Virus record (IMG/VR): IMGVR_UViG_3300037246_000990
Coordinates: 55,600-119,599 of that record
Length of the DNA stretch: 64,000 nucleotides
Direction: 5' to 3' (one strand)
From: a virus
Shown in pieces: positions 3,058 to 22,240 of the stretch. The notes under the pieces are model-generated. The model worked only from the letters and a program-made list of their open reading frames with translations, made no database searches and was not told the DNA's origin. The translations under genes were made by a program, and so were the position numbers. Position 1 is the stretch's first letter; each line of letters opens with the position of its first letter.

Positions 3058-3399
3058 ATGATTAAACCTTTTCAAAACTATATGGCAGCATACCAGGCTG
3101 ACAGCAAAGCACTCCTTCACGATGGTAACTGGACTATCGAGAAGCTAAGTGAACTAGAAGAAGCACAGGGCTTCAGGTCACATCGGAGTGATTACTTCTC
3201 ATTGCTCAAGCATGTGTGTTATCCCAAGGGGTACGACGGTAAGGTTCCTTACCCAGAAAACGGGAGCAACTGCGTGTATCAAGTGGTGGTGTACCCCGAC
3301 GTCAGATCAGATTGCTGGCGTTGCGCGGCAAAGATACCCGAAGGCATGGTAGCGGTGTGGAAGTTTCAGAATTGGGAGCAACTAAAGTATGGAGGCTAA
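3058..3399 (+). CDS. Zinc-knuckle paralog family, member A
   Basis: 113 residues. Member of a dispersed small-protein family in this window. It carries the N-terminal element H-D-G-N-W-T-I, the central element L-L-K-H-V-C, and the C-terminal knuckle C-W-R-C-A-A-K-I-P-E-G-M followed by a hydrophobic stretch ending in N-W-E. The three cysteines plus a histidine could bind one zinc. No enzymatic motif is present. It overlaps the start of the next gene. The ribosome binding site upstream of the chosen ATG is weak, so the start is uncertain by some residues. Function unknown; see the finding on this family. Confidence 0.7.
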   Translation: MIKPFQNYMAAYQADSKALLHDGNWTIEKLSELEEAQGFRSHRSDYFSLLKHVCYPKGYDGKVPYPENGSNCVYQVVVYPDVRSDCWRCAAKIPEGMVAVWKFQNWEQLKYGG

Positions 3400-4081
3400 G
3401 AAACGAACAAGGCGGGTACCCAAGCGGTTGAACACACCCTTCCTGAAGCATGGCATAACGGAGATCAACAACGAGATCGAGAAGGCGTACTCCAAGGTGA
3501 CAGGAAAGGACAAGCTATGGCAGACGTATGACAAGATCCAGGTATCAGATGCAGAGGCGTGCTTCCGCCAGTACCGTGGCAAGTGTGTGTTCTGTGACAC
3601 ACGCCTCAGCTACCTAGGCAGGGTAACGATGCCCGCAGCACGGCTAATGTTCTACGTACCACTCAAGGTAGGTGGTGAAGCACGGCCCGACAACCTCATC
3701 GTAGTATGCGCTCACTGCAAGCATGAGTACCGAGACACACGCAAGCTGAGGCAGGACATAGTAGGGCTGGATAGCTTTGCTGACTGCTGCGAAGAGTTGT
3801 TCATAGCCATCAAGGAAGGGCACCCCCAAGCTAAGATCAACATGCTTAAGGCACGAATCAACACACGGCTGACCGATGTGGCTACGTGTATGAGGTACGT
3901 CACCACCCCCGACTGGAGGCCAGTCAAGATGGAGAAGCTGGTTGATGGGAAAAACACAATGGCTGAGGCACTGGAAAGTATGGGTAAGGGAGAGGATACG
4001 AAGGAGGCTATCACGAACAACGTGAAGCAGGCAGTGACAACTAAACAGTACAGGATCATGAGGGAGCCAACCGATGAGTAA
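3389..4081 (+). CDS. HNH-like zinc protein with degenerate active site
   Basis: 230 residues with an HNH/His-Me-finger-like layout at about residues 64-112: C-V-F-C, then a hydrophobic segment leading to P-L-K-V-G-G and D-N-L-I-V-V-C-A-H-C-K. The two CxxC pairs and the GG...DN-L segment match HNH nucleases that use a structural zinc. The histidine normally found just before P-L-x-x-G-G is replaced by Phe-Tyr, so catalysis is doubtful. The N-terminus is very basic, which suggests DNA binding. It may be an inactivated nuclease turned DNA- or protein-binding factor. Lies between two members or genes of the replication arm with overlapping ends. Confidence 0.65.
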   Translation: MEAKKRTRRVPKRLNTPFLKHGITEINNEIEKAYSKVTGKDKLWQTYDKIQVSDAEACFRQYRGKCVFCDTRLSYLGRVTMPAARLMFYVPLKVGGEARPDNLIVVCAHCKHEYRDTRKLRQDIVGLDSFADCCEELFIAIKEGHPQAKINMLKARINTRLTDVATCMRYVTTPDWRPVKMEKLVDGKNTMAEALESMGKGEDTKEAITNNVKQAVTTKQYRIMREPTDE

Positions 4082-4113
4082 GTTTGCCATCAACCTCGCA
4101 AGGTGGGCAACAG

Positions 4114-4395
4114 ATGCTGACGCTTGAAAAGATCTTTGAGAAACAGATCAGAACCAACATTATTAAAAGGGAAATCCTGTTTGAAGATGGGCTATGGTGT
4201 ATCTACAAAAGAACACCAGCCGACATTAACAGCACACACAGTCTCATCCATAGATGTAGTATATACGTATGGTCCGCAACCCTAAAAACACTTCCGGTCA
4301 GGTGCCCTGAATGTGAAGAGGCAGCACCTGAAGGGATACTGGGGTTGCTTGAGCTGCAACAGTGGGGAACAAAGGACGGTAAGTATGCTAATTGA
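4114..4395 (+). CDS. Zinc-knuckle paralog family, member B
   Basis: 93-94 residues. The ATG at 4114 follows an AAGGTGG site; an in-frame TTG at 4084 is less likely. It shows all three family elements: F-E-D-G-L-W-C-I, L-I-H-R-C-S-I, and C-P-E-C-E-E-A-A-P-E-G-I-L followed by L-L-E-L-Q-Q-W. The last match to member A (P-E-G-M/I...L/F-Q-x-W) is close. Ends within the start of the helicase gene. Function unknown. A 17-codon ATG frame (4075-4128) overlaps the upstream end and may be chance. Confidence 0.72.
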   Translation: MLTLEKIFEKQIRTNIIKREILFEDGLWCIYKRTPADINSTHSLIHRCSIYVWSATLKTLPVRCPECEEAAPEGILGLLELQQWGTKDGKYAN

Positions 4396-5854
4396 GTTCG
4401 ACAACACCGTAGCTCTAATCAAACCAGAGGATGATGATGAGCTAAAGATGTACGCTCAGGTACGAGATGGGGTCAAGACTATGGCCCCCGGTGCCCGGTA
4501 CATGAGGCAGCATAAGCTCTGGCTCCAAACGAAAGGGGCAAGAGGGTGGGATGGGCGCACCAGCATCCTCAGTAAGGCACACCCCAGCAACGGCAGTGCC
4601 TTCTTCCCTACGGGGCTGCTGCCCTACATCCACACAAAGCTAGCGGAGCTGGTTGTGTTGCCCTTCACCTTCAATGACCTGAGGCATACGCCACCAGTAC
4701 CCAGCTACAACTACACTGTACCACTATTTGACTTCCAAGCCATAGTCTTCCTTGATGCAGTAGACAACAGAGTATTCATGGGAACCACAGCAGGCTATCA
4801 CTGGCCTCAAGGTGTACTTCAGATAGCAACTGGAGGGGGCAAGACAGAGCTAGCTGTAGCTATGTGCCAAGCGATACCTGTACCCACCATGTTCATCGTC
4901 CATCGTAAGCACCTAGTTACCCAAGCTAAAGCTAGGTTCGCTAAGTATGGTATCACAGCGGGGCAGATAGGTGATGGGGTGTTTGACCCCAACACCTCCG
5001 GCGTGACTATAGCCACAACACAAACACTAGACCGGTTGTTCAAAGAGGGCGACAACGAGAAGATCAAGCAATTCTTAGGAGCAGAGCAGATCTTCTTCGA
5101 TGAGGCCCACCTTGCCGCCAGCAAGATAGCAGTGGGGAACCAACTTGTTTCGGTGTCTCGTCAGTTCCGCAGGGCGTACTACAGGTGGGGCCTAACCGGA
5201 ACCGCCTTTATGAAGGACAAATACAGTAACCAACTCCTTATGGGGTGTACTGGCGATAGGCTTGCTCATATCACCAGCGACCAGCTCATCAAAGCGGGCT
5301 ATCTCACGCCACCTCGGGTAGTGATGATAAATATGCCTGATATCGGCAGGCCAAAGAGTTGGCCTGAAGTATTTGATCACGCCATCGTTCTAAATCTGAA
5401 TCGGAACAAAAGAATCATAGAGGAGTTGGACAAATGCCCAAAGCCTGCGCTGGTGATGTCATCACGATTATCACATGCAAGTATCCTCCGAAGAATGGCG
5501 ATAAATAAAGGGATTTCGGTTCCGTCCGTTCATTGCGGGGCTACGAAAAACAAGGATAGAACCAAAGGGATAACTGACTTGCAATCTGGGAAAATAAATG
5601 CTATAATTGCTACAACAATCTATGACGAGGGTTTGGATATCCCCGAGCTACGTACCCTCATCTTGGCCGGAGGGGGTAAGAGTAAAGTGGCAGCACTTCA
5701 GAAGATTGGCCGAGGCTTGAGGAAAGCAGCAGGGAAACATGAGGTGCTGATCATTGATTTCTGTGATCAGACGGGAGCAATACTAAAACGACACTCGGCT
5801 GCGAGGAAAAAGATATGGGAGGAAGAAAACTTCAATGTTACAGAGGAAGACTAA
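4385..5854 (+). CDS. UvsW-like superfamily 2 DNA/RNA helicase
   Basis: Predicted ATP-dependent helicase acting in recombination-dependent replication and fork remodelling. The 489-residue product has Walker A A-T-G-G-G-K-T at 148-154, the DEAH box at 239-242, motif III L-T-G-T-A at 270-274, a second RecA fold with I-A-T-T-I-Y-D-E-G-L-D-I-P (motif V), and motif VI Q-K-I-G-R-G-L-R at 439-446. Size and an unrelated N-terminal segment of about 110 residues fit T4 UvsW. The ATG at 4385 follows AAAGGACGG; an ATG 72 bases upstream lies in the previous gene without a site. An internal promoter-like sequence lies near its 3' end (5579-5607). Confidence 0.93.
   Translation: MLIEFDNTVALIKPEDDDELKMYAQVRDGVKTMAPGARYMRQHKLWLQTKGARGWDGRTSILSKAHPSNGSAFFPTGLLPYIHTKLAELVVLPFTFNDLRHTPPVPSYNYTVPLFDFQAIVFLDAVDNRVFMGTTAGYHWPQGVLQIATGGGKTELAVAMCQAIPVPTMFIVHRKHLVTQAKARFAKYGITAGQIGDGVFDPNTSGVTIATTQTLDRLFKEGDNEKIKQFLGAEQIFFDEAHLAASKIAVGNQLVSVSRQFRRAYYRWGLTGTAFMKDKYSNQLLMGCTGDRLAHITSDQLIKAGYLTPPRVVMINMPDIGRPKSWPEVFDHAIVLNLNRNKRIIEELDKCPKPALVMSSRLSHASILRRMAINKGISVPSVHCGATKNKDRTKGITDLQSGKINAIIATTIYDEGLDIPELRTLILAGGGKSKVAALQKIGRGLRKAAGKHEVLIIDFCDQTGAILKRHSAARKKIWEEENFNVTEED
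5579..5607 (+). promoter_or_regulatory. Promoter-like element P0 inside the helicase gene
   Basis: TTGCAA at 5579-5584, a 17-base spacer and TATAAT at 5602-5607. The arrangement and the TTGCAATCT start match P2 at 19368. It lies within coding sequence, 228 bases before the HNH gene at 5835, and could give that gene and the following ones a separate promoter. Because it also encodes the ordinary helicase residues D-L-Q-S-G-K-I-N-A-I-I, a chance match cannot be excluded. Confidence 0.5.
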
Positions 5855-6299
5855 AGACTGGAAGAGATTCTGGAGCAAGGTAAAGAGAGGCCCGAACTGT
5901 TGGGAATGGCAAGCAGGTTGCTGCTCTGATGGTTACGGTAAGTTTTGGTTTGAAGGTCGAAATAGTCTGGCTCATCGTGTGTCGTATGCAACAAGCCAGG
6001 GTATACCAGAAAAGCTGTGTGTCTTACATACCTGCGATAACCCACCATGTGTCCGACCCTCTCACTTGTTCCTAGGGACACAGGCCGATAACGTAGCTGA
6101 CATGGTAATCAAAAGAAGGCAATCATATAATACCGGCGCTTGTGGTGTCCAACACGGGAACGCAAAGCTCACAGAAGCACAGGTGAAAGCTATCCGCTGC
6201 GACCCTAGGCTACAGTGTATAATAGCTAAAGATTACAAGGTGAGTCGTTCTACAATAACTTATATTAGGCAACGCAAAACCTGGAAGCACGTCGCATAG
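5835..6299 (+). CDS. HNH homing-type endonuclease (copy 1)
   Basis: 154 residues, free-standing. N-terminal C-W-E-W-Q-A-G motif and a central HNH core H-T-C-D-N-P-P-C-V-R-P-S-H-L-F-L-G-T followed by Q-A-D-N-V-A-D-M. This is the I-HmuI-like HNH_3 pattern. The C-terminus (H-G-N-A-K-L-T, then a helix-turn-helix-like S-R-S-T-I-T-Y-I) probably contacts DNA. Two further copies with the same core are at 15029 and 35782. Such enzymes cleave unoccupied sites and copy themselves by repair. It overlaps the helicase end by 20 bases, an unusual depth for an inserted mobile gene. Confidence 0.9.
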   Translation: MLQRKTKDWKRFWSKVKRGPNCWEWQAGCCSDGYGKFWFEGRNSLAHRVSYATSQGIPEKLCVLHTCDNPPCVRPSHLFLGTQADNVADMVIKRRQSYNTGACGVQHGNAKLTEAQVKAIRCDPRLQCIIAKDYKVSRSTITYIRQRKTWKHVA

Positions 6300-6309
6300 G
6301 AACCCACCA

Positions 6310-6579
6310 ATGGATGCTATAAAGTATGGCCAAGTCATGCTCACAGAAGGTGAGTTCTCCATCAAGGCAGGAATATTTAGTTATTTCATAGTACATGACG
6401 TTTGTGGTACTGGTGTTTATTCTGTAATGAGAGACAGGACCCCAGGGAAACATGATTGGTGCCGACGCTGCTACGACCTCTACGGTAAGAAGATACAATA
6501 CGATGAGAAAATGACAGGAATCGTAGCTCTACTAGATTGGAAAGATGAAGGAGACAGCCGTGACCAATTTGCTGAGTAA
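6310..6579 (+). CDS. Zinc-knuckle paralog family, member C
   Basis: 89 residues. Family elements: L-T-E-G-E-F-S-I-K, I-V-H-D-V-C-G, and W-C-R-R-C-Y-D-L followed, after an insert, by M-T-G-I-V-A-L-L-D-W. The proline usually found after the CxxC pair is missing and the knuckle is about 10 residues longer, so this is the most divergent of the clear members. It follows the HNH gene after 10 bases and overlaps the next gene. Function unknown. Confidence 0.68.
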   Translation: MDAIKYGQVMLTEGEFSIKAGIFSYFIVHDVCGTGVYSVMRDRTPGKHDWCRRCYDLYGKKIQYDEKMTGIVALLDWKDEGDSRDQFAE

Positions 6580-7258
6580 CGCAAAGACAAACGCTAAGAC
6601 AAAGAAGATGTTGGATGAGTTCGGATACGAAGGGGTCATTCACTACATGGCGCCTGACGTGGTGGCTGACGGAAAACACACAGTATGCCCTCATAGCACG
6701 ATAGGTTGCCGTGAGTCTTGTCTATATACTGCTGGTCGAGGAGCTATGAGAAATGTGCAAGATGCACGCATCCGTAAGACACTGGAGTTCCTCAAGGACA
6801 AGCAAGGGTACGCAGACAAGTTGGTCAAAGAACTGGCCAACCTTGAGACCCGTGCCTTGAAGAAGGGTTACACGCCAGTAGCTCGGCTGAATGGTACGTC
6901 AGACATCCCATGGGAGAACTACATCGACATGGAAGCCCTCCCCAACGTCCGATTCTATGACTACACCAAGGGTTATATGAGGATGCAGAGCTGGCTGCGT
7001 GGGGTGCTACCTTTCAACTATCATCTGACATTCAGCAATGATGAACACACGACGCTTGCAGAGCGGCACTTCATCCTGGCGAAGGGAGGCACCGTGGCCA
7101 TGGTATTCAGGGATAAGATCCCCGACTGCTGGCAGATGTACCCTGTAATTTCAGGTATGACACACGATTTTAGATTCCGTGACAAGACAGGCTGCATCAT
7201 AGGGCTACTCGCAAGGGGCCGTGCCAAGCAAGACAGCACAGGGTTTGTGGTGGATTGA
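6560..7258 (+). CDS. gp88/DUF7227-like phage protein
   Basis: 232 residues from GTG 6560, which lies 6 bases from an AAGGAG site; an in-frame ATG at 6545 overlaps that site and is less likely. Conserved features: C-P-H-S-T-I-G-C-R-E-S-C-L-Y-T-A-G-R-G near the N-terminus (three cysteines, a possible metal or Fe-S site), then A-R-L-N-G-T-S-D-I-P-W-E, F-Y-D-Y-T-K and N-Y-H-L-T-F-S. These match the widespread mycobacteriophage gp88 / DUF7227 family, sometimes named as replication-associated. The activity is not known; the cysteine pattern and TIM-barrel-like order of motifs recall radical enzymes, but this is inference. Confidence 0.8.
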   Translation: MTNLLSNAKTNAKTKKMLDEFGYEGVIHYMAPDVVADGKHTVCPHSTIGCRESCLYTAGRGAMRNVQDARIRKTLEFLKDKQGYADKLVKELANLETRALKKGYTPVARLNGTSDIPWENYIDMEALPNVRFYDYTKGYMRMQSWLRGVLPFNYHLTFSNDEHTTLAERHFILAKGGTVAMVFRDKIPDCWQMYPVISGMTHDFRFRDKTGCIIGLLARGRAKQDSTGFVVD

Positions 7259-7545
7259 TGAGTACGAGCAACGTAGGTACACTAAAGATCCTAGTACCTG
7301 ACATACAAGGGTGGGCAATAGTTAAACACCAGTTCAGCGTGACGGGTACTTCCATCCATGGTGAACATTTAATAGGATGCAAACATGCCTTCGATAGACT
7401 GATAGCTCGTTGGTGCTGGGAGTGGAGCGATGCTGGTGTAGAGAATACGGACCGCTGTTGGGTGTGTAAAGAACCTGTGCCAGAAGAGATCGTAGCGCTA
7501 GTAGCGATGATGAATTGGGAGAAGATACAACGTGGCAAACCTTAA
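7258..7545 (+). CDS. Zinc-knuckle paralog family, member D
   Basis: 95 residues. The ATG overlaps the preceding stop (TGATG). Family elements: I-Q-G-W-A-I-V, H-L-I-G-C-K-H, and R-C-W-V-C-K-E-P-V-P-E-E-I-V-A-L followed by M-M-N-W-E-K. The C-terminal knuckle is very close to member A (W-x-C-K/A...P-E-x-I/M...N-W-E). The gene overlaps the DNA ligase start by 14 bases. Function unknown. Confidence 0.72.
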   Translation: MSTSNVGTLKILVPDIQGWAIVKHQFSVTGTSIHGEHLIGCKHAFDRLIARWCWEWSDAGVENTDRCWVCKEPVPEEIVALVAMMNWEKIQRGKP

Positions 7546-8491
7546 AACATTCAAGAAGTACAAGCCCAAGTACAGGAAGCCGGTGCACAAGACAGACGAA
7601 GAACTGAGAGGCCCCTTCAAGCCTATGAAACCGTTTACTATTCACGACCCTAAGGTACACGTACAGTACCCATCTCTATGCACCCCCAAGATTGACGGGA
7701 TCCGGTGTGTCACGTATCCAAACGGGACACCTATGAGCTACCAACTCAAGCCCATCCCCAACCTCCACATCCGCAAGGTGTTGGAAGAGTACGGGGTAGA
7801 GGGTATGGACGGTGAGCTGTTCATCAGAGGTGCCAAGACATTCGGTGAGTCCTCCGGTCCCATCATGAAGGTAGATGGTGAACCTGACTTCATTTACTAC
7901 GTGTTCGATATCTATAACAGCCTTGACTTTTACAACCAGAGAGTGAAGCAGTTGGACAAGCTGCCTAAGCCGAGGCCAGCGTGCATCGAGTTGGTAAAAC
8001 CAACCCTTGTCTTTGATGCCGATGGGTTCATGAAGTATTGGAACAAGTGTGTAGACGAGGGGTACGAGGGAGTCATCGCAAGGCAAGGGCATGTGTACCT
8101 CCACGGTCGTAGCACCATGACACACGGTGGTATGGGTAAGTACAAGCATTTCCAAGATGATGAGGCAGAGATCATTGGGTTTGAAGAGATGTGTACTAAT
8201 ACGAATCCCAAGAAAACCAATGCTCATGGTAGGTCGGAGAGGTCGAGTGCTAAGGCAGGCAAGGTACCCAACGGCCACCTTGGTAAGTGGTTATGCCGAG
8301 ACCTCAAGACAGGCATCGAGTTCTCCTGCGGTACCATGAAGGGTGTGACGAAGAAGCAACGCAAGGAGTGGTGGAGTAACAGGCAAATCTACATTGGGTA
8401 CATCTGTAAGTACAAACATCAGCCAAGCGGAGAGACAGCGAAGCCTCGTTTCCCGGTTTGGTTGGGGTGGCGTTCAAAGGATGACATGTAA
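7532..8491 (+). CDS. ATP-dependent DNA ligase
   Basis: Seals nicks during phage replication and repair. 319 residues, GTG start behind GGGAG. Nucleotidyltransferase motifs: motif I P-K-I-D-G-I-R with the adenylated lysine at position 53, motif III D-G-E-L-F-I at 93-98, motif IV E-G-V-I-A-R at 179-184, and motif V G-K-Y-K at 202-205. A C-terminal OB-fold of about 110 residues (A-E-I-I-G-F onward) closes the protein. Length and motif spacing match the compact T7-type ligases. It lies between two members of the zinc-knuckle family and overlaps both. Confidence 0.94.
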   Translation: MANLKTFKKYKPKYRKPVHKTDEELRGPFKPMKPFTIHDPKVHVQYPSLCTPKIDGIRCVTYPNGTPMSYQLKPIPNLHIRKVLEEYGVEGMDGELFIRGAKTFGESSGPIMKVDGEPDFIYYVFDIYNSLDFYNQRVKQLDKLPKPRPACIELVKPTLVFDADGFMKYWNKCVDEGYEGVIARQGHVYLHGRSTMTHGGMGKYKHFQDDEAEIIGFEEMCTNTNPKKTNAHGRSERSSAKAGKVPNGHLGKWLCRDLKTGIEFSCGTMKGVTKKQRKEWWSNRQIYIGYICKYKHQPSGETAKPRFPVWLGWRSKDDM

Positions 8492-8754
8492 TGGCTTATA
8501 AGTTTGAAGTACTGGTTGAGGAAGGTGACTTTCGGATAGCCCGTGTTAAAGGGGATGCCCAACATCAGAGATGGATCGTTGTTCAACATCGTTGCGACCC
8601 AGATGTATACGTCGATAGGCTATTTAGTGATAACGGGTGGTCACTTTGTTATCATAGTGATAGGCGATGCTACTGCTGTAAAACGCCTGAACCTGACAAG
8701 ATGATAGGCTTCCACGACTTAATAATGTGGAACAATACTGAGTATAGAGTATGA
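8491..8754 (+). CDS. Zinc-knuckle paralog family, member E
   Basis: 87 residues; start overlaps the ligase stop. Family elements: V-E-E-G-D-F-R-I-A, V-V-Q-H-R-C-D-P, and R-C-Y-C-C-K-T-P-E-P-D-K-M-I-G-F followed by L-I-M-W-N-N. Four to five cysteines and two histidines are available for metal binding. Function unknown. Confidence 0.72.
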   Translation: MAYKFEVLVEEGDFRIARVKGDAQHQRWIVVQHRCDPDVYVDRLFSDNGWSLCYHSDRRCYCCKTPEPDKMIGFHDLIMWNNTEYRV

Positions 8755-8763
8755 GGAGATGCA

Positions 8764-8913
8764 ATGTGTTTCTTTAAGCACAAATGGGGGAAGTGGGAAG
8801 CCCCCGTCACAACTAACCCAGACGACGAAGGCAACATAAACAAAATGCAAGTAAGAACTTGTGATCGTTGTGGTCTATGGCAGCGACGGATGTGCTACCC
8901 GTATGGAATATGA
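8764..8913 (+). CDS. Small zinc-ribbon protein (49 aa)
   Basis: A complete short gene behind a GAGGAG site. It starts M-C-F-F-K-H-K-W-G-K-W-E and ends with R-T-C-D-R-C-G-L-W-Q. The pattern (H-K-W-G near the start and a CxxCG knuckle near the end) is common among tiny phage zinc-ribbon proteins of unknown role. The 17 bases around its start (8750-8766) are repeated exactly at the start of the next gene (8909-8925), which suggests local duplication of the translation start region. Confidence 0.72.
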   Translation: MCFFKHKWGKWEAPVTTNPDDEGNINKMQVRTCDRCGLWQRRMCYPYGI

Positions 8914-8922
8914 GGAGATGCA

Positions 8923-10149
8923 ATGCGTGTACTAACAGGTAACAAGCAGAAGGTTCCGGTGAAGGCATGGGTGGATGGCGTGGAGCTAGATATCAAGGCC
9001 GAGATACAGCTACGCCAGACAGCGCAGCTCCCCTTCATTCACAAGCATCTAGCTGTCATGCCAGATGCACACTGGGGCATGGGCTCCACTGTAGGGAGTG
9101 TCATAGCTACGAAGAAGGCAATCATACCTGCTGCGGTGGGTGTGGACATTGGGTGTGGTATGATTGCTGCACGCCTGCCTGGTGCGGGAATATCTTGTGG
9201 TGTGGTCGAGTTCTGTAAGGAGATCCGCGCAGCCATCGAAGCAGCGGTACCTCACGGGCGCACCGACAACGGTGGGCCGAAAGACGAGGGGCGGTGGCAA
9301 GACAGTATCCCTCGTAGCACAGGTGTCGAGTGGAGTAATATGCAGCAGGCTTTCTGGGACATAGGTGACAAGCACCCGGAGATCTATAAGTGGGGCTCTC
9401 CTATGTACCAGCTCGGTACGCTGGGTGGAGGCAACCACTTCATTGAGGTGTGCAAGGACGAAGAGAATGAGGTGTGGGTCATGCTGCACTCAGGGTCACG
9501 GGGTATCGGCAACAAGATCGGTAGGTACTTCATCAAGCTTGCTCAAAGGGAGTGTGAGAAGTGGAACATTGATCTACCCAACTCGGACCTGGCGTACTTG
9601 CCTGAAGGTACAGAATACCATGACGATTACGTTGAGGCGGTACACTGGGCACAGAGTTACGCCAAGATTAACAGAGATATCATGCTGGAGCTAACGCTGG
9701 AAGCGATGGGTGGTGTGCTTGGGTATGATATCCGGCCCGACGATCTTGTGGTGAATTGTCATCACAACTACGTGCAGAAGGAGAACCACTATGGGAAGAA
9801 CGTATTTGTTACGCGCAAAGGCGCTGTACGGGCTAGGGTTGGTGATCTTGGTATTATCCCTGGGTCTATGGGAGCCCGGTCTTACATTGTGGAAGGTCTT
9901 GGCAATCCTATGTCTTTCAATTCCTGTTCTCATGGAGCTGGTCGGGTTATGTCGAGGGCGGAAGCCAAGCGAACCTTCACGGTGAAGGATCACATCGCAG
10001 CCACCAAGGGTGTCGAGTGCCGGAAGGACAAGGGTGTGATAGATGAGACACCCGGCTGTTACAAGGACATCGATGCTGTCATGGCAGCGCAGAAGGATCT
10101 AGTGAAGATCAAGCACATACTGAAAGCTTTGGTGTGTGTCAAGGGGTAG
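8923..10149 (+). CDS. rtcB: RNA-splicing ligase RtcB
   Basis: Joins RNA 2',3'-cyclic phosphate or 3'-phosphate ends to 5'-OH ends using GTP and Mn. The 408-residue length matches Escherichia coli RtcB. Motifs in order: P-D-A-H-W-G-M-G (47-54), G-V-D-I-G-C-G-M (73-80), L-G-G-G-N-H-F-I-E (167-175), H-S-G-S-R-G (189-194), N-C-H-H-N-Y-V (278-284), and S-C-S-H-G-A-G-R whose His337 corresponds to the guanylylated histidine. All metal ligands appear present, so it should be active. In a lytic phage it may repair tRNAs cut by host anticodon nucleases. No tRNA genes are seen nearby. Confidence 0.96.
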   Translation: MRVLTGNKQKVPVKAWVDGVELDIKAEIQLRQTAQLPFIHKHLAVMPDAHWGMGSTVGSVIATKKAIIPAAVGVDIGCGMIAARLPGAGISCGVVEFCKEIRAAIEAAVPHGRTDNGGPKDEGRWQDSIPRSTGVEWSNMQQAFWDIGDKHPEIYKWGSPMYQLGTLGGGNHFIEVCKDEENEVWVMLHSGSRGIGNKIGRYFIKLAQRECEKWNIDLPNSDLAYLPEGTEYHDDYVEAVHWAQSYAKINRDIMLELTLEAMGGVLGYDIRPDDLVVNCHHNYVQKENHYGKNVFVTRKGAVRARVGDLGIIPGSMGARSYIVEGLGNPMSFNSCSHGAGRVMSRAEAKRTFTVKDHIAATKGVECRKDKGVIDETPGCYKDIDAVMAAQKDLVKIKHILKALVCVKG

Positions 10150-10240
10150 CCTACACCTAAATATAGTATTCGCTCGAATTGACGAGCATGAAAACCGTGC
10201 CAAAATGAGGAAATATTATACCTCGGCACAAGGAGGAAGC

Positions 10241-10546
10241 ATGCAAGCTAATGGTAAAGATATAATAGAAGTGATACGTATGGGGGAGTGGAGCATCCTC
10301 AATATGTTGGAGGCTAGTTCACGGGGTGTAGAGGGGCCAGGGGTCGTACATAGACCCTGCGACGGTTGGATAAGGTTTGGGATGCGGGAAAACGCTTTGT
10401 ACTGCCGCTCATGCCATGAAGCTATGCCTAAGGATATAGTAACACTTTGGTTACTCCTCGCAGCGGACTTAGCTTGTAGTAATGGCTTCTACAAGGGAGT
10501 TACCATCGCCGATGTCACCCAGGATGATCAAGGAGGTTACTCATGA
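10241..10546 (+). CDS. Zinc-knuckle paralog family, member F
   Basis: 101 residues. ATG at 10241 follows AGGAGG at 10231-10236; longer in-frame readings upstream lack a site. Family elements: R-M-G-E-W-S-I-L, V-V-H-R-P-C-D-G, and Y-C-R-S-C-H-E-A-M-P-K-D-I-V-T-L. It has an extra C-terminal tail of about 25 residues. The 91 bases between rtcB and this gene contain a short CTCG/CGAG inverted repeat but no promoter I can support. It overlaps the DnaB gene start (ATGA). Confidence 0.72.
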   Translation: MQANGKDIIEVIRMGEWSILNMLEASSRGVEGPGVVHRPCDGWIRFGMRENALYCRSCHEAMPKDIVTLWLLLAADLACSNGFYKGVTIADVTQDDQGGYS

Positions 10547-11955: not shown

Positions 11956-11956
11956 G

Positions 11957-11985
11957 TTGCAAAAGTTTGAAAGAAAAGCTATAAT
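11957..11985 (+). promoter_or_regulatory. Promoter P1 (class A)
   Basis: TTGCAA (11957-11962), 17-base spacer, TATAAT (11980-11985). The whole 29-base element is identical to P3 at 29088 and P4 on the other strand at 56483. It starts one base after the DnaB stop codon and reads into the gene at 12048. Consensus spacing suggests recognition by host housekeeping sigma-70. Confidence 0.9.
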
Positions 11986-12012
11986 GTAGTAGAGAGATAA
12001 GGGAGCGTCTCG

Positions 12013-12051
12013 ATGAAGGGAGGCACCCAGACAAAGGGAGGTACTATATGA
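12013..12051 (+). CDS. Possible 12-codon leader peptide
   Basis: The first ATG downstream of P1, behind AGGGAG. It encodes M-K-G-G-T-Q-T-K-G-G-T-I and stops at TGA overlapping the ATG of the next gene (ATGA). Two GGGAGG repeats lie within it, the second serving the next gene. Could be a coupling leader or simply a consequence of the repeated ribosome binding site. Confidence 0.3.
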   Translation: MKGGTQTKGGTI

Positions 12052-12383
12052 GCGGACTTAGGTTCTCGCCCCGGTGGGCACTCTCGCCTAGAGATTGGGA
12101 TATTCATCTATCCTGCTCGAAAAGAGTAATACCCGACCAACACGCCCAGAGTGGCACCATAAAAGGTAAACAACAAAGACAAGAAGAAGATAAACGTAAA
12201 GGACTACAACAAGAACAGTGGTTCTATATTGAGAGAGATGGGAATAGTAATAATTGTACTGTGGTACATGACTCCAGCTTTCTCCCCTCTGAGGGGTTGA
12301 TGTATTTTGGGCAACGAAACCAGCCATTCAACTTCAGGGGACAACAGCACACCCCCTCATGTCTTGGTGTGATGCCAGCATGA
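12048..12383 (+). CDS. Unknown Gln-rich protein
   Basis: 111 residues behind GGGAGG, first full-size gene after promoter P1. The middle is polar and rich in Gln, Lys, Arg and Glu (about residues 40-58), and the rest is aromatic-rich; no known motif. Its stop codon lies inside the hairpin at 12352-12388, so termination of translation and RNA folding may interact. Function unknown; small early phage proteins next to strong promoters are often host-takeover factors, but nothing in the sequence proves this. Confidence 0.6.
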   Translation: MSGLRFSPRWALSPRDWDIHLSCSKRVIPDQHAQSGTIKGKQQRQEEDKRKGLQQEQWFYIERDGNSNNCTVVHDSSFLPSEGLMYFGQRNQPFNFRGQQHTPSCLGVMPA

Positions 12384-12388: not shown

Positions 12389-12436
12389 CCTTCTAAGTCT
12401 CACACCTATAATCCAGGCGAAGGAGCCAAAACCAGA

Positions 12437-12802
12437 ATGGTAGAATGGGACGGCACTCAGTACATAGACATAGAGACTTACTACAAGCGCGTGGTTTTGA
12501 GCATGCCTCAGGACGGTGACGCCCTCCTAGGAGCCATGACACACCTCAATGCACTGACGTACCTCGGTTGTAGTAAGCTGTTCGTAGCTGAGACCGATGA
12601 GATGGATATCTACGTAGATGCTTGGCTGGTCAACGGTGCCTTCATCACCCACAAGCACCCTGAGTTCGGGGTGGTGAAGCAAGACAGCTGGGTGACCGGG
12701 ATGGTAGAATGTGGGCTACGTCACAGGGCGTGTGAACTATGTGGGAAAGTGATACCGGGTGAGATTGAAATGATGCATCACTTTTACAGGCTAGACAACT
12801 AA
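12437..12802 (+). CDS. Zinc-knuckle paralog family, member G
   Basis: 121 residues from ATG 12437, behind GAAGGAG; an upstream in-frame ATG at 12359 lies inside the hairpin and has no site. The C-terminal knuckle is clear: A-C-E-L-C-G-K-V-I-P-G-E-I-E-M followed by H-H-F-Y-R-L. The central element is H-K-H-P-E-F rather than H-x-C, and the first element is weak, so membership is less certain than for A, B, D, E, F and H. Another 40 residues precede the family region. Confidence 0.62.
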   Translation: MVEWDGTQYIDIETYYKRVVLSMPQDGDALLGAMTHLNALTYLGCSKLFVAETDEMDIYVDAWLVNGAFITHKHPEFGVVKQDSWVTGMVECGLRHRACELCGKVIPGEIEMMHHFYRLDN

Positions 12803-12828
12803 GGAGAAAGAAGAATGGGAGGATGTCG

Positions 12829-13005
12829 ATGCCGCACTACGAGATGATATGCAATAGCGGGCATGAGACAGAGGTGGAGCAACGGATCACCGAAGATCCT
12901 CTGACTGTGTGCCCCAAGCTGGGCACTGATCAAGATGGCAATGAGGTGCAGTGTTGCTCCCCTTGTCGTAGGCTGACGAAGGAGGCTGATGATGCCTCAC
13001 TATGA
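12829..13005 (+). CDS. FmdB-like zinc-ribbon protein, short copy
   Basis: 58 residues starting M-P-H-Y-E-M-I-C, with G-H-E-T-E-V-E-Q-R-I-T, T-V-C-P and a C-terminal C-C-S-P-C-R-R. This is the FmdB/zinc-ribbon layout (PF09723-like). The ATG at 12829 is 6 bases from GGGAGG. It closely matches the next gene but lacks the Phe/Gly tail, so it looks like a shortened tandem duplicate. Role in phages unknown. Confidence 0.75.
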   Translation: MPHYEMICNSGHETEVEQRITEDPLTVCPKLGTDQDGNEVQCCSPCRRLTKEADDASL

Positions 13006-13237
13006 TTACAAATGCGACGCGGGTCATGAGTTTGAGATTGAGCAGCGTATCACTGCGGATGCTTTGAAGGTGTGCTACTTCAGAGAAACCATAAATAGTA
13101 ATGAGCTTGAAGGGCTTGAAGGATACGGCACACCTATCAAGCAACGTGTGTGCGGTGCTCCTTGTCGTAGGCTGATCTCTAAGACCAGCTTCACGTTCAA
13201 AGGTGGAGCCCCAACCCCTAAGGGAGGTATGATATGA
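12992..13237 (+). CDS. FmdB-like zinc-ribbon protein, full copy
   Basis: 81 residues starting M-P-H-Y-D-Y-K-C-D-A-G-H-E-F-E-I-E-Q-R-I-T, then a C-G-A-P-C-R-R pair and the typical tail F-T-F-K-G-G. Start 12992 follows GGAGG. It overlaps the end of its neighbour, whose sequence it repeats. FmdB-like ribbons are annotated as regulators on weak evidence; zinc binding is likely, function open. Confidence 0.78.
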   Translation: MPHYDYKCDAGHEFEIEQRITADALKVCYFRETINSNELEGLEGYGTPIKQRVCGAPCRRLISKTSFTFKGGAPTPKGGMI

Positions 13238-14899: not shown

Positions 14900-15017
14900 C
14901 TTTGTTGATGCTACTAGCGGGGATCTATGGCGTTGTTTGAAGTGCAACCTTGTACATCAGTACTTCCGAAGTCAGCCAGGGTGCCCGAGGTGTAAAAGGA
15001 GAGAAGCGGATGAGTAG
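14868..15017 (+). CDS. Small zinc-ribbon protein (49 aa)
   Basis: Complete short gene behind AAGGAG, overlapping the previous one by 32 bases in another frame. Contains C-L-K-C and G-C-P-R-C, spaced like a rubredoxin-type zinc ribbon. Third member of the small Cys-rich run. Function unknown. Confidence 0.62.
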   Translation: MDPKRHQEIDSFVDATSGDLWRCLKCNLVHQYFRSQPGCPRCKRREADE

Positions 15018-15028
15018 GTGGAGAACTA

Positions 15029-15490
15029 ATGCCGTATAAAAGTATACCGTTAACTGACAGGCTACAGAGGGGGCTTAAGCTACAACCTAGTGGATGCTGG
15101 GAATGGCAGGGTTACTGTACCCGGGGAGGGTATGGACAGACCGGTAGTGGCGGAAAATATGGTAAAAAGCTTTATGTACATAGAGCAATATGGGAAATTG
15201 TCTTTGGTTTTATTCCAGAAAGGCTGTGCGTCTTGCATAAGTGTGATAACCCTCCTTGTGCTAACCCGGCTCATCTATTTTTAGGTACGAAGGCTGACAA
15301 TATAGCTGATATGGTAAGCAAAGGGCGTCAACGAGGCCCACGGGGAACCCAACACGGAAACGCAAAACTAACTTGGGATCAAGTTCACGCTATTCGTGTT
15401 GATGGTAGAACTCAACTTAAAATTGGCAAAGCGTATGGAATTAACCAGACAGCAGTGAGTGCTATTAAAAGAGGCACGCGATGGAAGTAA
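15029..15490 (+). CDS. HNH homing-type endonuclease (copy 2)
   Basis: 153 residues. Same architecture as the gene at 5835: C-W-E-W-Q-G, core H-K-C-D-N-P-P-C-A-N-P-A-H-L-F-L-G-T, K-A-D-N-I-A-D-M, then H-G-N-A-K-L-T and a helix-turn-helix-like end. The stretch and the following 130 bases look AT-richer than the flanks, as expected for an inserted mobile gene. No intron is evident; it appears free-standing between two genes. Confidence 0.9.
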   Translation: MPYKSIPLTDRLQRGLKLQPSGCWEWQGYCTRGGYGQTGSGGKYGKKLYVHRAIWEIVFGFIPERLCVLHKCDNPPCANPAHLFLGTKADNIADMVSKGRQRGPRGTQHGNAKLTWDQVHAIRVDGRTQLKIGKAYGINQTAVSAIKRGTRWK

Positions 15491-15630
15491 AAGATTATAA
15501 ACAGGTAAATATGAAAATAAATGAGATAAGATTAGCTTTCATTATAACTAAATTGAAGTTGGTTCGAGCTTTATTGACACCTATTTTGAGGCTTCACATT
15601 CGTATTCGACTGAGAAGGAGAGGGCAATGA
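15481..15630 (+). CDS. Possible 49-aa basic hydrophobic peptide
   Basis: Open frame from an ATG inside the end of the HNH gene to a TGA that overlaps the next start (ATGA). It encodes a basic peptide with a hydrophobic stretch (R-L-A-F-I-I-T-K-L-K-L-V). The exact overlap with the following gene favours translation, while the AT-rich composition favours a remnant carried with the HNH insertion. Low confidence. Confidence 0.35.
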   Translation: MEVKDYKQVNMKINEIRLAFIITKLKLVRALLTPILRLHIRIRLRRRGQ

Positions 15631-15872
15631 CAGAGCAGCCGTACCTAGAGAGGCTTGAACAGATAATCGAGCGGCAGTACAAAGACCACCCGACTGGCTG
15701 CGGTGGGAGCTTCGGAGAGCTGCTGTGTTGGGAGATCCATGAGAACGGGAAGACCTTCATCTGGCTGGCTGAGAAATGGGGGATCAGTGTGACCACGCTT
15801 GGGGATCTAATCGCGGACCATTGCCGCAAGCTAGAGGAAGACCCGTGTGTATCGCATGAGGAGAGCAGATGA
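15627..15872 (+). CDS. Small helix-turn-helix-like protein
   Basis: 81 residues with a good GAAGGAGAGGG site. The segment W-L-A-E-K-W-G-I-S-V-T-T-L-G-D-L-I reads as a helix-turn-helix, resembling a conserved small phage protein beside DNA polymerase genes. It overlaps the polymerase start. Probably DNA-binding; role unknown. Confidence 0.68.
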   Translation: MTEQPYLERLEQIIERQYKDHPTGCGGSFGELLCWEIHENGKTFIWLAEKWGISVTTLGDLIADHCRKLEEDPCVSHEESR

Positions 15873-18442: not shown

Positions 18443-18602
18443 ACCGAAGGCATCGCTAATCACAACAGGTATGGTTGCAGGTGTAGCAGGGCTCGTCACT
18501 TTGGGGATAAACGCACCTTTGTTAATGGGCGGACTTGTGATCGCAGCGCTTGTAGTGGGTGTGTATCTTTTGATACTAGAAGGTTTAGAGTCAAAGAGCT
18601 AG
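18432..18602 (+). CDS. Small two-helix membrane protein (56 aa)
   Basis: Complete short gene overlapping the polymerase stop. Lys-rich start (M-Q-N-K-P-K) followed by two hydrophobic stretches rich in Gly, Val, Leu and Ala separated by N-A-P, and ends with a charged tail E-G-L-E-S-K-S. The hairpin-like topology resembles small holins or membrane peptides, but it sits among replication genes, so function is open. Confidence 0.62.
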   Translation: MQNKPKASLITTGMVAGVAGLVTLGINAPLLMGGLVIAALVVGVYLLILEGLESKS

Positions 18603-18612
18603 GAGAAGTATA

Positions 18613-18912
18613 ATGGATAACGAAACAGACAGCAAAGCAACACACTACATGGCAACAGTATCAATCAACATGGGGTGGCAATGCCCTGTGTGCGACAAGT
18701 GCTACGCTCCCTGGGTTCCTAAGTGTGAGGATTGTGGCTCAGGTTCAGACTTCACCGTCAAATACAACGATAACATGGCAGGGTGCGAGCACATCTGGAG
18801 CCCTAACTCGCAGACCATAATGGGTGTCTTCTGTATCTACTGTGGCCACCCGCAGACACCCCCAGCAGCTTCGGGGAACGTATGCTCAAACGAAGGAGAA
18901 GTAAATGGTTGA
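18613..18912 (+). CDS. Double zinc-ribbon protein
   Basis: 99 residues behind AGGAG. C-P-V-C-D-K-C and C-E-D-C-G-S-G-S form one ribbon; C-E-H (with I-W) and C-I-Y-C-G-H a second. Likely binds two zinc ions. Overlaps the next gene by 8 bases. Function unknown. Confidence 0.68.
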   Translation: MDNETDSKATHYMATVSINMGWQCPVCDKCYAPWVPKCEDCGSGSDFTVKYNDNMAGCEHIWSPNSQTIMGVFCIYCGHPQTPPAASGNVCSNEGEVNG

Positions 18913-19366
18913 AGTAACAGTGGAATACTTGGAAGAAGGCCAGTGGGTCGCCAACTCAGTGGAGCTAGACACCGATAGTGACCTAGCTCTCAGTGATGAA
19001 ACCCTTAACAAGGACATGTGCGCGCTCCCTAAGCGTATTGCACACTACGCTGAGGTGGCGGCTGAGTGTCATGCCTATGCCTCTCGTAAGAAGAACGAGG
19101 TGGAGGTGGTAGAAGCTGAGGTGGCACAGGCACTTAGGATCGAAGCTGCTCAAAACAAGCTGAAGATCACGGAGGCTGGTATCCGAGAGCATGTCGTCCA
19201 GCAGGTTGAGGTGACTGAGGCACGCCATGCCTCATACAAGGCACAGGCTCAATACACCATGGTTGATGGCTTCTACAGGGCCCTGCGAGAGATGGCATCC
19301 CTGGCTATCGCCCTGTGCTACAAGCAGAAGGAGGAGATTCGGGTCCTAAATAGCCCATTGGAATAG
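18905..19366 (+). CDS. Coiled-coil protein of the polymerase cluster
   Basis: 153 residues, helical, with heptad-like stretches (E-V-E-V-V-E-A-E-V-A-Q-A-L). Segments L-P-K-R-I-A-H-Y-A-E-V-A-A-E, F-Y-R-A-L-R-E-M-A and C-Y-K-Q-K-E-E-I-R resemble a conserved unnamed protein found next to recombination genes in other phages. Possibly an accessory or mediator protein; unproven. The stop codon is followed after one base by promoter P2. Confidence 0.68.
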   Translation: MVEVTVEYLEEGQWVANSVELDTDSDLALSDETLNKDMCALPKRIAHYAEVAAECHAYASRKKNEVEVVEAEVAQALRIEAAQNKLKITEAGIREHVVQQVEVTEARHASYKAQAQYTMVDGFYRALREMASLAIALCYKQKEEIRVLNSPLE

Positions 19367-19367
19367 G

Positions 19368-19396
19368 TTGCAATCTTTGGAAAGAAAAGCTATAAT
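19368..19396 (+). promoter_or_regulatory. Promoter P2 (class A variant)
   Basis: TTGCAA (19368-19373), 17-base spacer, TATAAT (19391-19396). The spacer ends in the same AAAGAAAAGC as P1, P3 and P4 but differs in its first half. It starts one base after a stop codon, as P1 does. It leads into small genes, then SSB, RecA and SbcDC. Confidence 0.88.
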
Positions 19397-19445
19397 TGAA
19401 TCATAACCAATTCGTCAACGACGACGATACTGAATGAGGAGAAAC

Positions 19446-19631
19446 ATGGGCATTGCATTATCGATAGAGATATACGAAGACAGAGTACAACCAGGGCTAT
19501 TCCGTTGGGTTTTTCTTGACTCCTCCGGAGACAAACACGGTCCTTCTGTGGGGTTCACATCCCGTTGGGAGGCGAAGGCTGATGTTGAAAGGATTCTTGC
19601 TACACATATGGATAAGAAGGGAGGCAAATAA
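19446..19631 (+). CDS. Small protein, possible DUF1508-like fold
   Basis: 61 residues from ATG 19446 behind GAGGAG; first gene after P2. Reads I-E-I-Y-E-D...F-R-W-V-F-L-D-S-S-G-D...S-R-W-E-A-K-A-D-V-E-R-I, which recalls the YegP/DUF1508 pattern (F-E-I-Y-x-D...W-R...S-K-x-x-A). The resemblance is weak. Function unknown. Confidence 0.6.
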   Translation: MGIALSIEIYEDRVQPGLFRWVFLDSSGDKHGPSVGFTSRWEAKADVERILATHMDKKGGK

Positions 19632-19843
19632 TGTCTGAAGAACTAAGGAAGATAGCAGAAGATCTGCAAAAGCATTACGCTCGCCTAAGCGTCTTGGCGG
19701 CGGAAAGCCTAGAGCAGACTAGAAAGAATTCCGGAGCAGGCTACTGCTGGTCTATCAAAGATGCAGCAAATGATTGCTTTAATAGTGCCGTGTGCCTACA
19801 AAGCCATGCAGACAACCTGGACCTGGATAAGGGAGACAACTAA
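19631..19843 (+). CDS. Small helical unknown protein
   Basis: 70 residues, helical, starting at the stop of its neighbour (TAATG) behind GGGAGG. Three cysteines without a zinc-like spacing. No recognised family. Confidence 0.62.
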   Translation: MSEELRKIAEDLQKHYARLSVLAAESLEQTRKNSGAGYCWSIKDAANDCFNSAVCLQSHADNLDLDKGDN

Positions 19844-20031
19844 TGGAAGGGAAACGAAAGTTCAATCGTATGGTCTGGTGGAAGCAGTTGTTCCCTCGAA
19901 CCCTATACACTATTTATCGAGACGAGCAAGAAGGCGGCAGGCGCTACTTTTCCATCTGGCGACAGTGGATGAACCGGGCTTACGACTTCCGTCGTATACC
20001 TGTAGCTGAACAGGACGAGGGAGACAAATAA
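19843..20031 (+). CDS. Small basic unknown protein
   Basis: 62 residues, Arg- and Trp-rich, with TAATG overlaps at both ends and a GGGAG site. Possible nucleic-acid or membrane-surface binding from composition only. Confidence 0.6.
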   Translation: MEGKRKFNRMVWWKQLFPRTLYTIYRDEQEGGRRYFSIWRQWMNRAYDFRRIPVAEQDEGDK

Positions 20032-20765
20032 TGGAAGATGAAAACGGCCTGCCCGCAGGCTTTGGTGAGGTGGACAAGGACTTTCAGCGCGAGGCATACG
20101 AAGAGTCCAAGAAGATCAGAGATAGTGGTGATGGGAAGACCCTCTTCCTGAAGTCGGGGATGACCCACCTACGTATCCTCCCTCCGGTCAAGGGTGCCAA
20201 GTCATGGTTCCGTGCGTACAAAGAGCATGGGCTCAGGACCGATGGGAAGTACGGGACGTTCACTTGCCCTACGTCGATTGACGACAGCGAGTGCCCCATC
20301 TGTGAGGTAGGTAAGGAACTGTACGAGGCGAAGGGAGACACGAACATCAAGAAGGCTAAGAAACTGTACGCGAAGCAAGCCTACTTGTACAACGCCTACG
20401 TGTACAGCTCTCCGGACGGCAAGACTCTAGCTGATGGTATCTTCACTGTTAAGTCCGGGTCAATGGTGTTCAAGCAGTTCATGGAGTACGACAACGATCC
20501 GGCAGGCGATTGGGGTGATATCTCCAACATCGCCAGCGGTGTTGAGCTGAAGGTTACACGCACCGGCAAGGGTCGGTTCGATACTGAGTACGGGGTTATG
20601 GGCGTGCCTGCACGGTCTAACATCGTGGACCAGGTGACCGCGAAAGGCGTGGACTTTGGTGAGCCCACTGATCTGACTGAGGTATACCCTCCGCTTTCTT
20701 ATGATGAGTTGGCGGATGTGTACGCGAAGTCGGACAACGCTACTCAGGAAGCTGTAGTAGAATAA
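20031..20765 (+). CDS. gp32-like single-stranded DNA-binding protein
   Basis: Coats single-stranded DNA during replication and recombination; it directly precedes the recombinase. 244 residues. The segment L-F-L-K-S-G-M-T-H-L-R-I-L-P-P with S-W-F-R-A-Y-K-E-H-G opens an OB fold. A zinc insertion F-T-C-P...C-P-I-C-E-V-G follows, as in T4-like gp32 proteins of many phages. The C-terminus has several acidic residues but no strongly acidic tail. Start overlaps the upstream stop (TAATG). Confidence 0.88.
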   Translation: MEDENGLPAGFGEVDKDFQREAYEESKKIRDSGDGKTLFLKSGMTHLRILPPVKGAKSWFRAYKEHGLRTDGKYGTFTCPTSIDDSECPICEVGKELYEAKGDTNIKKAKKLYAKQAYLYNAYVYSSPDGKTLADGIFTVKSGSMVFKQFMEYDNDPAGDWGDISNIASGVELKVTRTGKGRFDTEYGVMGVPARSNIVDQVTAKGVDFGEPTDLTEVYPPLSYDELADVYAKSDNATQEAVVE

Positions 20766-20773
20766 GGTCTGGT

Positions 20774-20816
20774 GGGGTGGTGCCTTTGAGTCGAGACCAT
20801 TGGTCAGGGCCACCCC
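20774..20816 (+). terminator. GC-rich hairpin between SSB and RecA genes
   Basis: GGGGTGG (20774-20780) pairs with CCACCCC (20810-20816); CCT/AGG can extend the stem across a small internal loop. The 3' side is GCCTTTCC, only briefly T-rich. It lies in the only gap (72 bases) of this operon and may attenuate transcription so that SSB is made in excess over the recombinase. Confidence 0.5.
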
Positions 20817-20837
20817 GCCTTTCCGCCGGGAGATTAA

Positions 20838-21896
20838 ATGAATAGCTTCGACAACATGTTCAAAGCGGTAGTCAAGAAGACAAAGAAAGATCCCAACACA
20901 GCCGTGTTCAAACCAGGCGACATCAACATCAAGAGCAACATCCCCTGGAGTATTCGCACTGGAATACCTGAGCTAGACTTCAACATGGGGAAACCAGGCT
21001 GGCCTGCAGGCCGGTGTGTTGAGCTGTACGGATTTGAACACAGTGGTAAAACAACATTAGGGTATCATGCCATTGCCGAAGCGCAGCGCATGAGAGGTAG
21101 CGCGTGGTTCCTTGACACAGAGAAGTCGTGGGATGAGCTACGAGCGATGGACTGTGGTGTAGACCCTGATTATCATCTAGGTATCGGCGACCCCGACTCA
21201 GTGGACGCTATGTTCCGACAGATCCAGTACATCATTGAGGCAAGAGAAGAAGACAACGACGGCAAACCGCTGGTCATCGTAGTTGACTCCGTCACTGGCG
21301 CTGCTACTGAAGGTATGAAGGCTAAGACCATCGGCGAGATTGAGAAGATTGCACAGGATGCCAAGGCTATCCGTGGGGGTATCCGTCGTATTCAGCCTGA
21401 TATCGCAGGGCTCAACATCAACCTGTTCATGATCAATCATGCGACAGCCAACATCACAGCCAACAAGTACGCCAAGCAGAGTGACTCGTCTGGGGGGCAC
21501 TCTATCAAGCTGGCTGCTACTGTACGTTGTTCGATGAAGCATGCAGGGTGGATTACAGACACGGACAAGATCAAGCGGCTCGGCCAGAAGATCAGCCTTA
21601 AAATAGAAAAGCTGAAGGGGTCTCAATTAGATTACCCTGAAGTGCAGGACACCCCGCTGCTCAACACAGTGGGCTTTGACACGACTGAGAGCCTACTACG
21701 TGCTGGTATAAAGGCGGGTTGGGTGGAACATAAGAAGGGCTCCCAGGCTTACAAGCTATACGATGAGGAGTTCGACCGGAAGTCGTGGCCCGCACTTGTG
21801 TTTGGCCGTGGTGGGATTGATGCAGCATACACAGAGTGGATCGATTGGTGCATCGAGGATGGGTGCATGACTAGGTGGGGAAGGGGTCTCGAATGA
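20838..21896 (+). CDS. RecA/UvsX-like recombinase
   Basis: Strand-exchange ATPase, 352 residues. Walker A G-F-E-H-S-G-K-T-T at 65-73, Walker B L-V-I-V-V-D at 145-150, and a G-G-H-S-I-K-L-A-A-T segment matching the L2-end motif of RecA-like recombinases. I-N-H-A-T-A-N provides the N-H element that senses DNA binding. Lies between SSB and the SbcDC pair, completing a phage recombination module with the UvsW-like helicase. Confidence 0.92.
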   Translation: MNSFDNMFKAVVKKTKKDPNTAVFKPGDINIKSNIPWSIRTGIPELDFNMGKPGWPAGRCVELYGFEHSGKTTLGYHAIAEAQRMRGSAWFLDTEKSWDELRAMDCGVDPDYHLGIGDPDSVDAMFRQIQYIIEAREEDNDGKPLVIVVDSVTGAATEGMKAKTIGEIEKIAQDAKAIRGGIRRIQPDIAGLNINLFMINHATANITANKYAKQSDSSGGHSIKLAATVRCSMKHAGWITDTDKIKRLGQKISLKIEKLKGSQLDYPEVQDTPLLNTVGFDTTESLLRAGIKAGWVEHKKGSQAYKLYDEEFDRKSWPALVFGRGGIDAAYTEWIDWCIEDGCMTRWGRGLE

Positions 21897-22240
21897 GTAG
21901 GCGTACTAGCTATGAGATTTTCCAAACGATGTCACTAACAGGCAACATAAAAGAAATAAAGCTTTATGTTGACGGGGCTTGGAGTCTCTATGGCAGACCA
22001 TCTACTTGGGGGTTGGATAATCTTATGAAGTCTTATTTTATCCATGATTGCCCTAACTATAAGAAGAGCATATGGTATCATTATTGGATTAACTATCTGG
22101 GCGAGGAAAAGCAGAGTACTCTCTTCGATATTGATTGCCAGGAGTGCAACACATCAGCACCCCAAGGACTTCAAGCACTCTGGCGTTTTCATAGCTTTGG
22201 GTGTGAAACAGCTCTTATCTTTATGGAGAAGACTACATGA
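21893..22240 (+). CDS. Zinc-knuckle paralog family, member H
   Basis: 115 residues from an ATG overlapping the recombinase stop, behind AAGGGG. Family elements: Y-V-D-G-A-W-S-L-Y, Y-F-I-H-D-C-P-N-Y, and I-D-C-Q-E-C-N-T-S-A-P-Q-G-L-Q-A-L-W. It lies about 9 kb from the next nearest member, again between two conserved recombination genes, with overlapping ends on both sides. Function unknown. Confidence 0.72.
   Translation: MSRRTSYEIFQTMSLTGNIKEIKLYVDGAWSLYGRPSTWGLDNLMKSYFIHDCPNYKKSIWYHYWINYLGEEKQSTLFDIDCQECNTSAPQGLQALWRFHSFGCETALIFMEKTT

Follow-up and report, generated by a model that had tools for sequence, protein, structure and literature searches.

A family of 31 small paralogous proteins with a putative zinc site in the genome of a tailed phage

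Gene Content of the Locus

The window analyzed here, a stretch of 64,000 nucleotides, comprises bases 55,600-119,599 of a virus record of 119,599 bases. The genome outside the window was covered as well, and the family search described below took in all stop-to-stop open reading frames (ORFs) of the genome. The virus is a tailed phage, as terminase and major head protein genes were detected. It also encodes a sigma factor, a DNA helicase, a ligase, RtcB, DnaB, a primase, SSB, SbcC and a DNA polymerase, next to RecA-like and SbcD-like genes whose names were assigned from motif and position. Megablast against the phage record collection gave no close relative of this phage, and searches of bacterial genomes with DnaB and RecA gave zero matches, or just distant (29%) RecA-like ones.

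Eight small plus-strand genes of the window, A to H (Z24 to Z31), are the starting point of this analysis; each was recovered at, or adjoining, the place where a sequence-only reading had first put it. The E-values in brackets stem from a profile built solely from the 23 copies located beyond the window, and the percentages are identities to the ortholog in a sister phage. A (3058..3399; 113 aa; E 1.3e-8; 69%) has BLASTP matches to D, H, E and B. B (4114..4395; 93 aa; E 1.7e-10; 46%) overlaps the start of an SF2 helicase gene. C (6310..6579; 89 aa; E 0.011) retains H-x2-C and C-x2-C, carries an insertion preceding the helix and has no ortholog in the sister phage. D (7258..7545; 95 aa; E 3.5e-10; 55%) has a displaced fourth ligand, and its start overlaps the stop of the phrog_1617 gene, just as the start of E (8491..8754; 87 aa; E 3.7e-11; 62%) overlaps the stop of the DNA ligase gene. 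In the sister phage, E has an additional duplicate beyond RtcB. The stop of F (10241..10546; 101 aa; E 2.6e-7; 42%) overlaps the start of the DnaB-like helicase gene. G (12437..12802; 121 aa; E 1.9e-4) shows H-x-H in place of H-x-C and has an N-terminal extension. Finally, H (21893..22240; 115 aa; E 4.3e-11; 59%) lies between the RecA-like and SbcD-like genes and overlaps both.

Several other features were recorded along the way. The RtcB RNA ligase gene (window 8923-10149; PHROG E 5e-137) stands between ligase and DnaB here and after primase in the relatives G005-G007. A 1094-aa protein (window 30501-33782) contains several glycosyltransferase regions within a single chain. Four similar small HNH endonuclease-like ORFs (window 5835-6299, which is PHROG-confirmed, 15029-15490 and 35776-36216, and L023:13185-13655) form a second, smaller paralogous set, possibly of homing endonucleases. 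Two adjacent, overlapping ORFs at window 12823-13005 and 12989-13237 are alike in sequence (MPHYEMICNSGHETEVEQRI / MPHYDYKCDAGHEFEIEQRI); they look like FmdB-type zinc ribbons and fall outside the 31-copy family. The ORF between DnaB and member G (window 11985-12380) has a dN/dS near 1.0 against the sister phage and is either non-coding or unusually fast-evolving.

Homology and Copy Number

Sequence comparison confirms that the eight proteins form one homologous family. Pairwise BLASTP links B with H (1.7e-7), A with D (1e-6), A with H (6e-5), D with E (2e-4) and B with D (3e-4). With the profile of the copies beyond the window, the eight take the first eight places among 763 window ORFs, with E-values from 3.7e-11 to 0.011 and the next-best ORF at 0.24, while 20 rounds of residue shuffling brought 1 out of 15,260 sequences below E 0.01. 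When each of the eight was left out in turn, A, B, D, E, F and H were recovered from the others (E 1.8e-9 to 3e-4) and C (0.98) and G (0.90) were not, in line with the earlier designation of these two as the weakest members. Orthologs in five further phages secure the membership of G, the most widely kept copy across phages. C is the least secure, borderline member; its assignment draws on the outside profile, on the iterated profile (E 4e-12, a value obtained after C's own inclusion) and on its retained ligands. Profile comparison, proposed beforehand as a check, thus reveals significant similarity among the members.

The eight genes are real, but the genome total is 31 rather than eight. A profile of the eight run against the stop-to-stop ORFs of the genome finds more than 20 further copies outside its training set. 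Upon iteration it converges at 30 copies; a 31st follows at E 0.002, and a sharp gap sets the noise apart. A genome search with a profile of all 31 returned the identical 31 places. According to their summed coordinates, these genes total about 9.6 kb, or 8% of the genome.

Sequence Signature and Predicted Fold

The family alignment comprises 92 sequences from seven phages. The domain covers around 70 residues, starting with a beta-hairpin (L-x-x-x-G-x-W-x-[IL]) and a strand that ends in H-x-[C/H]. Next come a strand bearing an aromatic residue, the C-x2-C turn and then an amphipathic helix (P-[DE]-x-[ILM]-x-[GA]...L-x-x-W). One His and both Cys of C-x2-C are invariant across the 92 sequences, save for one gene (found in two contigs) with C-x-C. 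The fourth ligand is supplied by HxC in 64 members, HxH in 19 and HxxC in six, and is displaced or otherwise altered in three, so that four Cys/His ligands are conserved in 89 of the 92. Since a metal ligand permits such an exchange of Cys and His, this pattern supports a metal site, and a single zinc ion is most likely coordinated by the two pairs H-x-[C/H] and C-x2-C. Further signature positions are a W/F two residues past the G, a W/Y ahead of C-x2-C, the P-[DE] opening the helix, and L/M/F and often W inside it. The N-W or D-W ending that the sequence-only reading had pointed out is general in part, but a W occupies that column in just 40% of the members. The two loops vary from 8 to 36 and from 6 to 43 residues. 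The pI of the copies ranges from 4.1 to 9.05, mostly acidic to neutral, and no basic column is conserved in the family alignment.

AlphaFold2 modelling of E, based on the alignment of 92, gave a pLDDT of 85.9 and a pTM of 0.77 for a model without metal, with strands at residues 4-11, 14-20, 29-34 and 50-54 and a helix at 69-80. A domain of four strands, a knuckle and a helix is hence predicted with confidence. G, modelled with H-x-H relatives only, reached a pLDDT of 75.7 with the same order of elements; the comparison concerns this order, and the G sequences are also part of the E alignment. Structure prediction, the second check suggested at the outset, therefore yields a common element order for the copies modelled (E and G). 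Foldseek retrieved no relative of the model from the PDB (best E 0.81; small domains may be missed by this search) and no match from BFVD (best E 0.29). Designed TIM barrels, which came up in a PDB profile match at E 0.025, were rejected as a short chance match.

Relation to Known Families

The proposal of an unrecognized small protein family with a conserved potential zinc site is supported. Searches of Pfam (with the 31 own copies), PHROGs, NCBIfam and PADLOC each returned no family matched by more than one member. The anti-phage defence profiles known to PADLOC were unmatched apart from three single weak matches (best E 0.011), and none of the known anti-defence or takeover families was matched. 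A search of the open-access literature brought up no published description of the family.

The label of zinc knuckle under which the proteins were first described does not hold in its classical CCHC sense. The C-x2-C turn is shared with the retroviral-type CCHC knuckle, but here two distant ligand pairs occur, the alignments contain no C-x2-C-x4-H-x4-C and Pfam gives no match. Treble clefs and zinc ribbons are alike in having one predicted metal site, two strand-joined ligand pairs and a C-terminal helix; the first pair here is instead an H-x-[C/H] on a strand. In a treble clef the second ligand pair sits at the N-terminus of the helix, whereas in the model of E the pair is C60/C63 and the helix spans 69-80; it begins 6 residues past C-x2-C, which leaves the second pair outside its first turn. 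Lar-like restriction alleviation proteins (PHROG 6795; Pfam Lar_restr_allev) are likewise small phage proteins with Cys pairs and a helix after C-x2-C, yet they carry a CPxCG knuckle, in contrast to the H-x-[C/H] first pair of this family. A single member (1 out of 92) matches PHROG 6795, at E 0.002, which is the chance expectation for that many queries, and none of the 31 own copies matches the Lar profile in Pfam.

All detections of the family fall within this phage lineage. Tblastn with four single members against 50,697 phage records gave none in cultured phages, no family copies occur in a 174-kb phage whose RecA is distant, and in degenerate scans the family alignments found the sister phage alone and single members found this lineage alone. 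Two candidates outside the lineage were rejected: a Rhizobium phage match to H runs antisense to an annotated helicase, and one match in 299 genomes of one bacterial phylum (E 8e-4) crosses two stops and was taken as false. As these searches are less sensitive than an all-phage profile search, the confinement to the lineage is provisional.

Arrangement along the Genome

All 31 copies lie on the plus strand between 33.5 and 77.8 kb of the genome. The sequence-only reading had the copies scattered singly and not in tandem, which fails genome-wide: 16 of them make up a near-continuous head-to-tail array (33,505-38,832), located some 17-22 kb upstream of where the window begins, in which most successive genes overlap by 1 to 8 bases. 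The other 15, including the eight of the window, are spread over the remainder of the rightward gene block, its replication genes among them. The array stands at the start of this block, as the leftward genes end near 33.2 kb, and where leftward genes switch to rightward ones, two divergent matches to TTGCAA-N17-TATAAT occur (33,269-33,337). A 10/12 sigma-70-like match precedes the array. The array region holds 7 promoter-like matches where about 5 are expected by chance; with a count so near chance, the promoter support is by position only. The array is probably an immediate-early operon. A tRNA-Thr gene (L022:13139-13212, minus strand) adjoins the divergent promoter-like sites (region L022:13139-13340).

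The first ORF behind the promoter-like site (33,344-33,655; L022:13344-13655) keeps HxC, W, CxxC and GL..W in the form LLHIC...CTGC...GLRAIW, has a sister-phage ortholog of 80% identity and is, judged by these residues, a probable degenerate 32nd member. A 79-aa ORF with THFC...CLAC (genome 55,265-55,501; L023:15265-15501; 95% identity to the sister phage) may either derive from the family in a frozen state or have no relation to it.

Evolution among Related Phages

The sister phage (119,470 bases; RecA 95% identical) contains 33 copies, and five fragmentary, more distant relatives contain 2 to 8 copies each. Based on reciprocal best match and order, 23 syntenic orthologs are shared with the sister phage; around eight copies are private to the present phage (C included) and around ten to its sister (the E duplicate included). 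The orthologs are under purifying selection, with a dN/dS of 0.16-0.46 in 24 ortholog pairs. Their median dN is 0.25, whereas in that region the value is 0.08 for large genes and 0.16 for the remaining small ones. Pooled by structural element, dN/dS is 0.13 for the helix, 0.17 for the ligand strand and 0.46-0.48 for the loops. The two loops also carry most indels, the scaffold and the helix being constrained. A dN/dS above 1 was looked for by gene pair and by pooled segment and found in neither, so an arms race is undemonstrated.

Copies have been gained, lost and moved while the order of the core genes remained fixed. The five relatives keep the order sigma, helicase, ligase, DnaB, primase, polymerase, SSB, RecA, SbcD, SbcC and have zinc-site genes in overlapping slots, mostly as non-orthologous copies; only the DnaB-to-primase slot, that of G, is kept in most phages. 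For instance, the slot between RecA and SbcD lacks H in G003-G007, and the nearest relative of H beyond the sister phage, G004 30449 (support 96/91), has a different position. Z09 lies within the array in G000 and beside the DNA polymerase in G003, and G004 21029 groups with Z20 (99/94) yet stands upstream of the helicase. The family tree is built on few columns and has many unresolved forks. Within it, the array genes Z10, Z11, Z13, Z14 and Z15 and their sister copies form one clade (99/90), which shows local tandem duplication. The suggested origin through repeated duplication is supported.

Functional Interpretation

The reading that we prefer, with a probability of roughly 45%, is that of a lineage-specific family of zinc-scaffold binders that are made early, directed at the host and diversified by birth-and-death. 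One zinc ion would pin the scaffold and two variable loops would be presented to different protein partners. The copies would then act as small, early-made binding or inhibitor proteins that disable or redirect host functions, for host takeover or counter-defence, in a repertoire diversified by duplication as targets change. The pointers to such a role are indirect, namely the position of the array, the turnover of copies and the variability of the loops. Small early takeover and anti-defence proteins of phages share the traits of small size, location in the early region, fast evolution and lineage specificity; they are normally single-copy and mutually unrelated, unlike the 31 copies here, which have one fold. 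A likeness in organization is offered by large eukaryotic DNA viruses, whose multigene families (MGF360/505 of ASFV, and the ankyrin and Bcl-2-like families of poxviruses) also consist of small diverged paralogs, tandem and dispersed, with copy numbers varying among relatives. Their proteins are unrelated to this domain, and here it is a bacterial virus for which the host-directed role is inferred. The option of different host targets raised in the sequence-only reading is viable. Its strongest form, with 30 or more early zinc-scaffold proteins each fitted to a different host or defence protein by a birth-and-death process like that of the eukaryotic virus families, is put forward tentatively. 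Copies located in the replication operons may serve different purposes.

Nucleic-acid binding is common among small zinc domains, and the copies may alternatively be regulators that bind DNA or RNA and time or route phage or host gene expression. Some copies are indeed basic, at the upper end of the pI range, and the phage has its own sigma factor, hence a staged programme. On the contrary, the predominance of acidic to neutral copies, the lack of a conserved basic column and the absence of a recognizable DNA-binding motif or family match make this reading unlikely. The charge of the copies and their movement independent of neighbours lower both this explanation and the next one.

Start and stop overlaps (D with phrog_1617, E with ligase, F with DnaB, H with RecA and SbcD), positions conserved between both sister phages and a DnaB-to-primase slot occupied in most relatives would fit accessory subunits, in which dispersed copies bind and tune the product of the adjoining replication or repair gene, to which they would be translationally coupled. 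Yet 16 copies sit in the array, away from such enzymes, the slots in relatives are empty or hold non-orthologs, relatives of H, Z09 and Z20 have moved, and the neighbouring genes are far better conserved than the copies. The earlier suggestion that each copy serves a neighbouring enzyme is therefore unsupported, as the core order is fixed while copies come, go and move, and we hold this role for rather improbable.

A structural or assembly role, be it a heteromeric shell, nucleoid or compartment of many paralogs or a zinc store, would account for the many same-fold paralogs within a single genome and for the conserved helix; it is very unlikely, given that the genes lie in the early/replication block and not among the virion genes, that copy number differs from phage to phage and that one ion per domain makes a poor store. 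Least probable of all is a self-spreading or largely neutral duplication, with copies piling up by recombination in a permissive region and little individual function: local tandem duplicates and private gains and losses agree with it, but all 24 ortholog pairs are constrained, the ligands are retained throughout where neutral copies would decay, and no mobility gene accompanies the copies.

Implications

To our knowledge, phage genomes rarely keep large paralogous families, and we know of viral multigene families but of none like this one in a phage on this fold. Spending approximately 8% of 119.6 kb on one small domain makes for an unusually large phage gene family, and the turnover of its copies from one related phage to another resembles that of tools directed at shifting host targets. 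Should the copies target different host or defence proteins, they would constitute a naturally occurring library of binders sharing one scaffold, and would make it possible to test how phages assemble a repertoire for takeover or counter-defence. Even otherwise, the family adds an unnamed domain with a confidently predicted fold and a clear signature for annotation libraries. If the strongest form of the host-directed reading is true, it would represent a previously undescribed phage repertoire of interchangeable binders on one fold.
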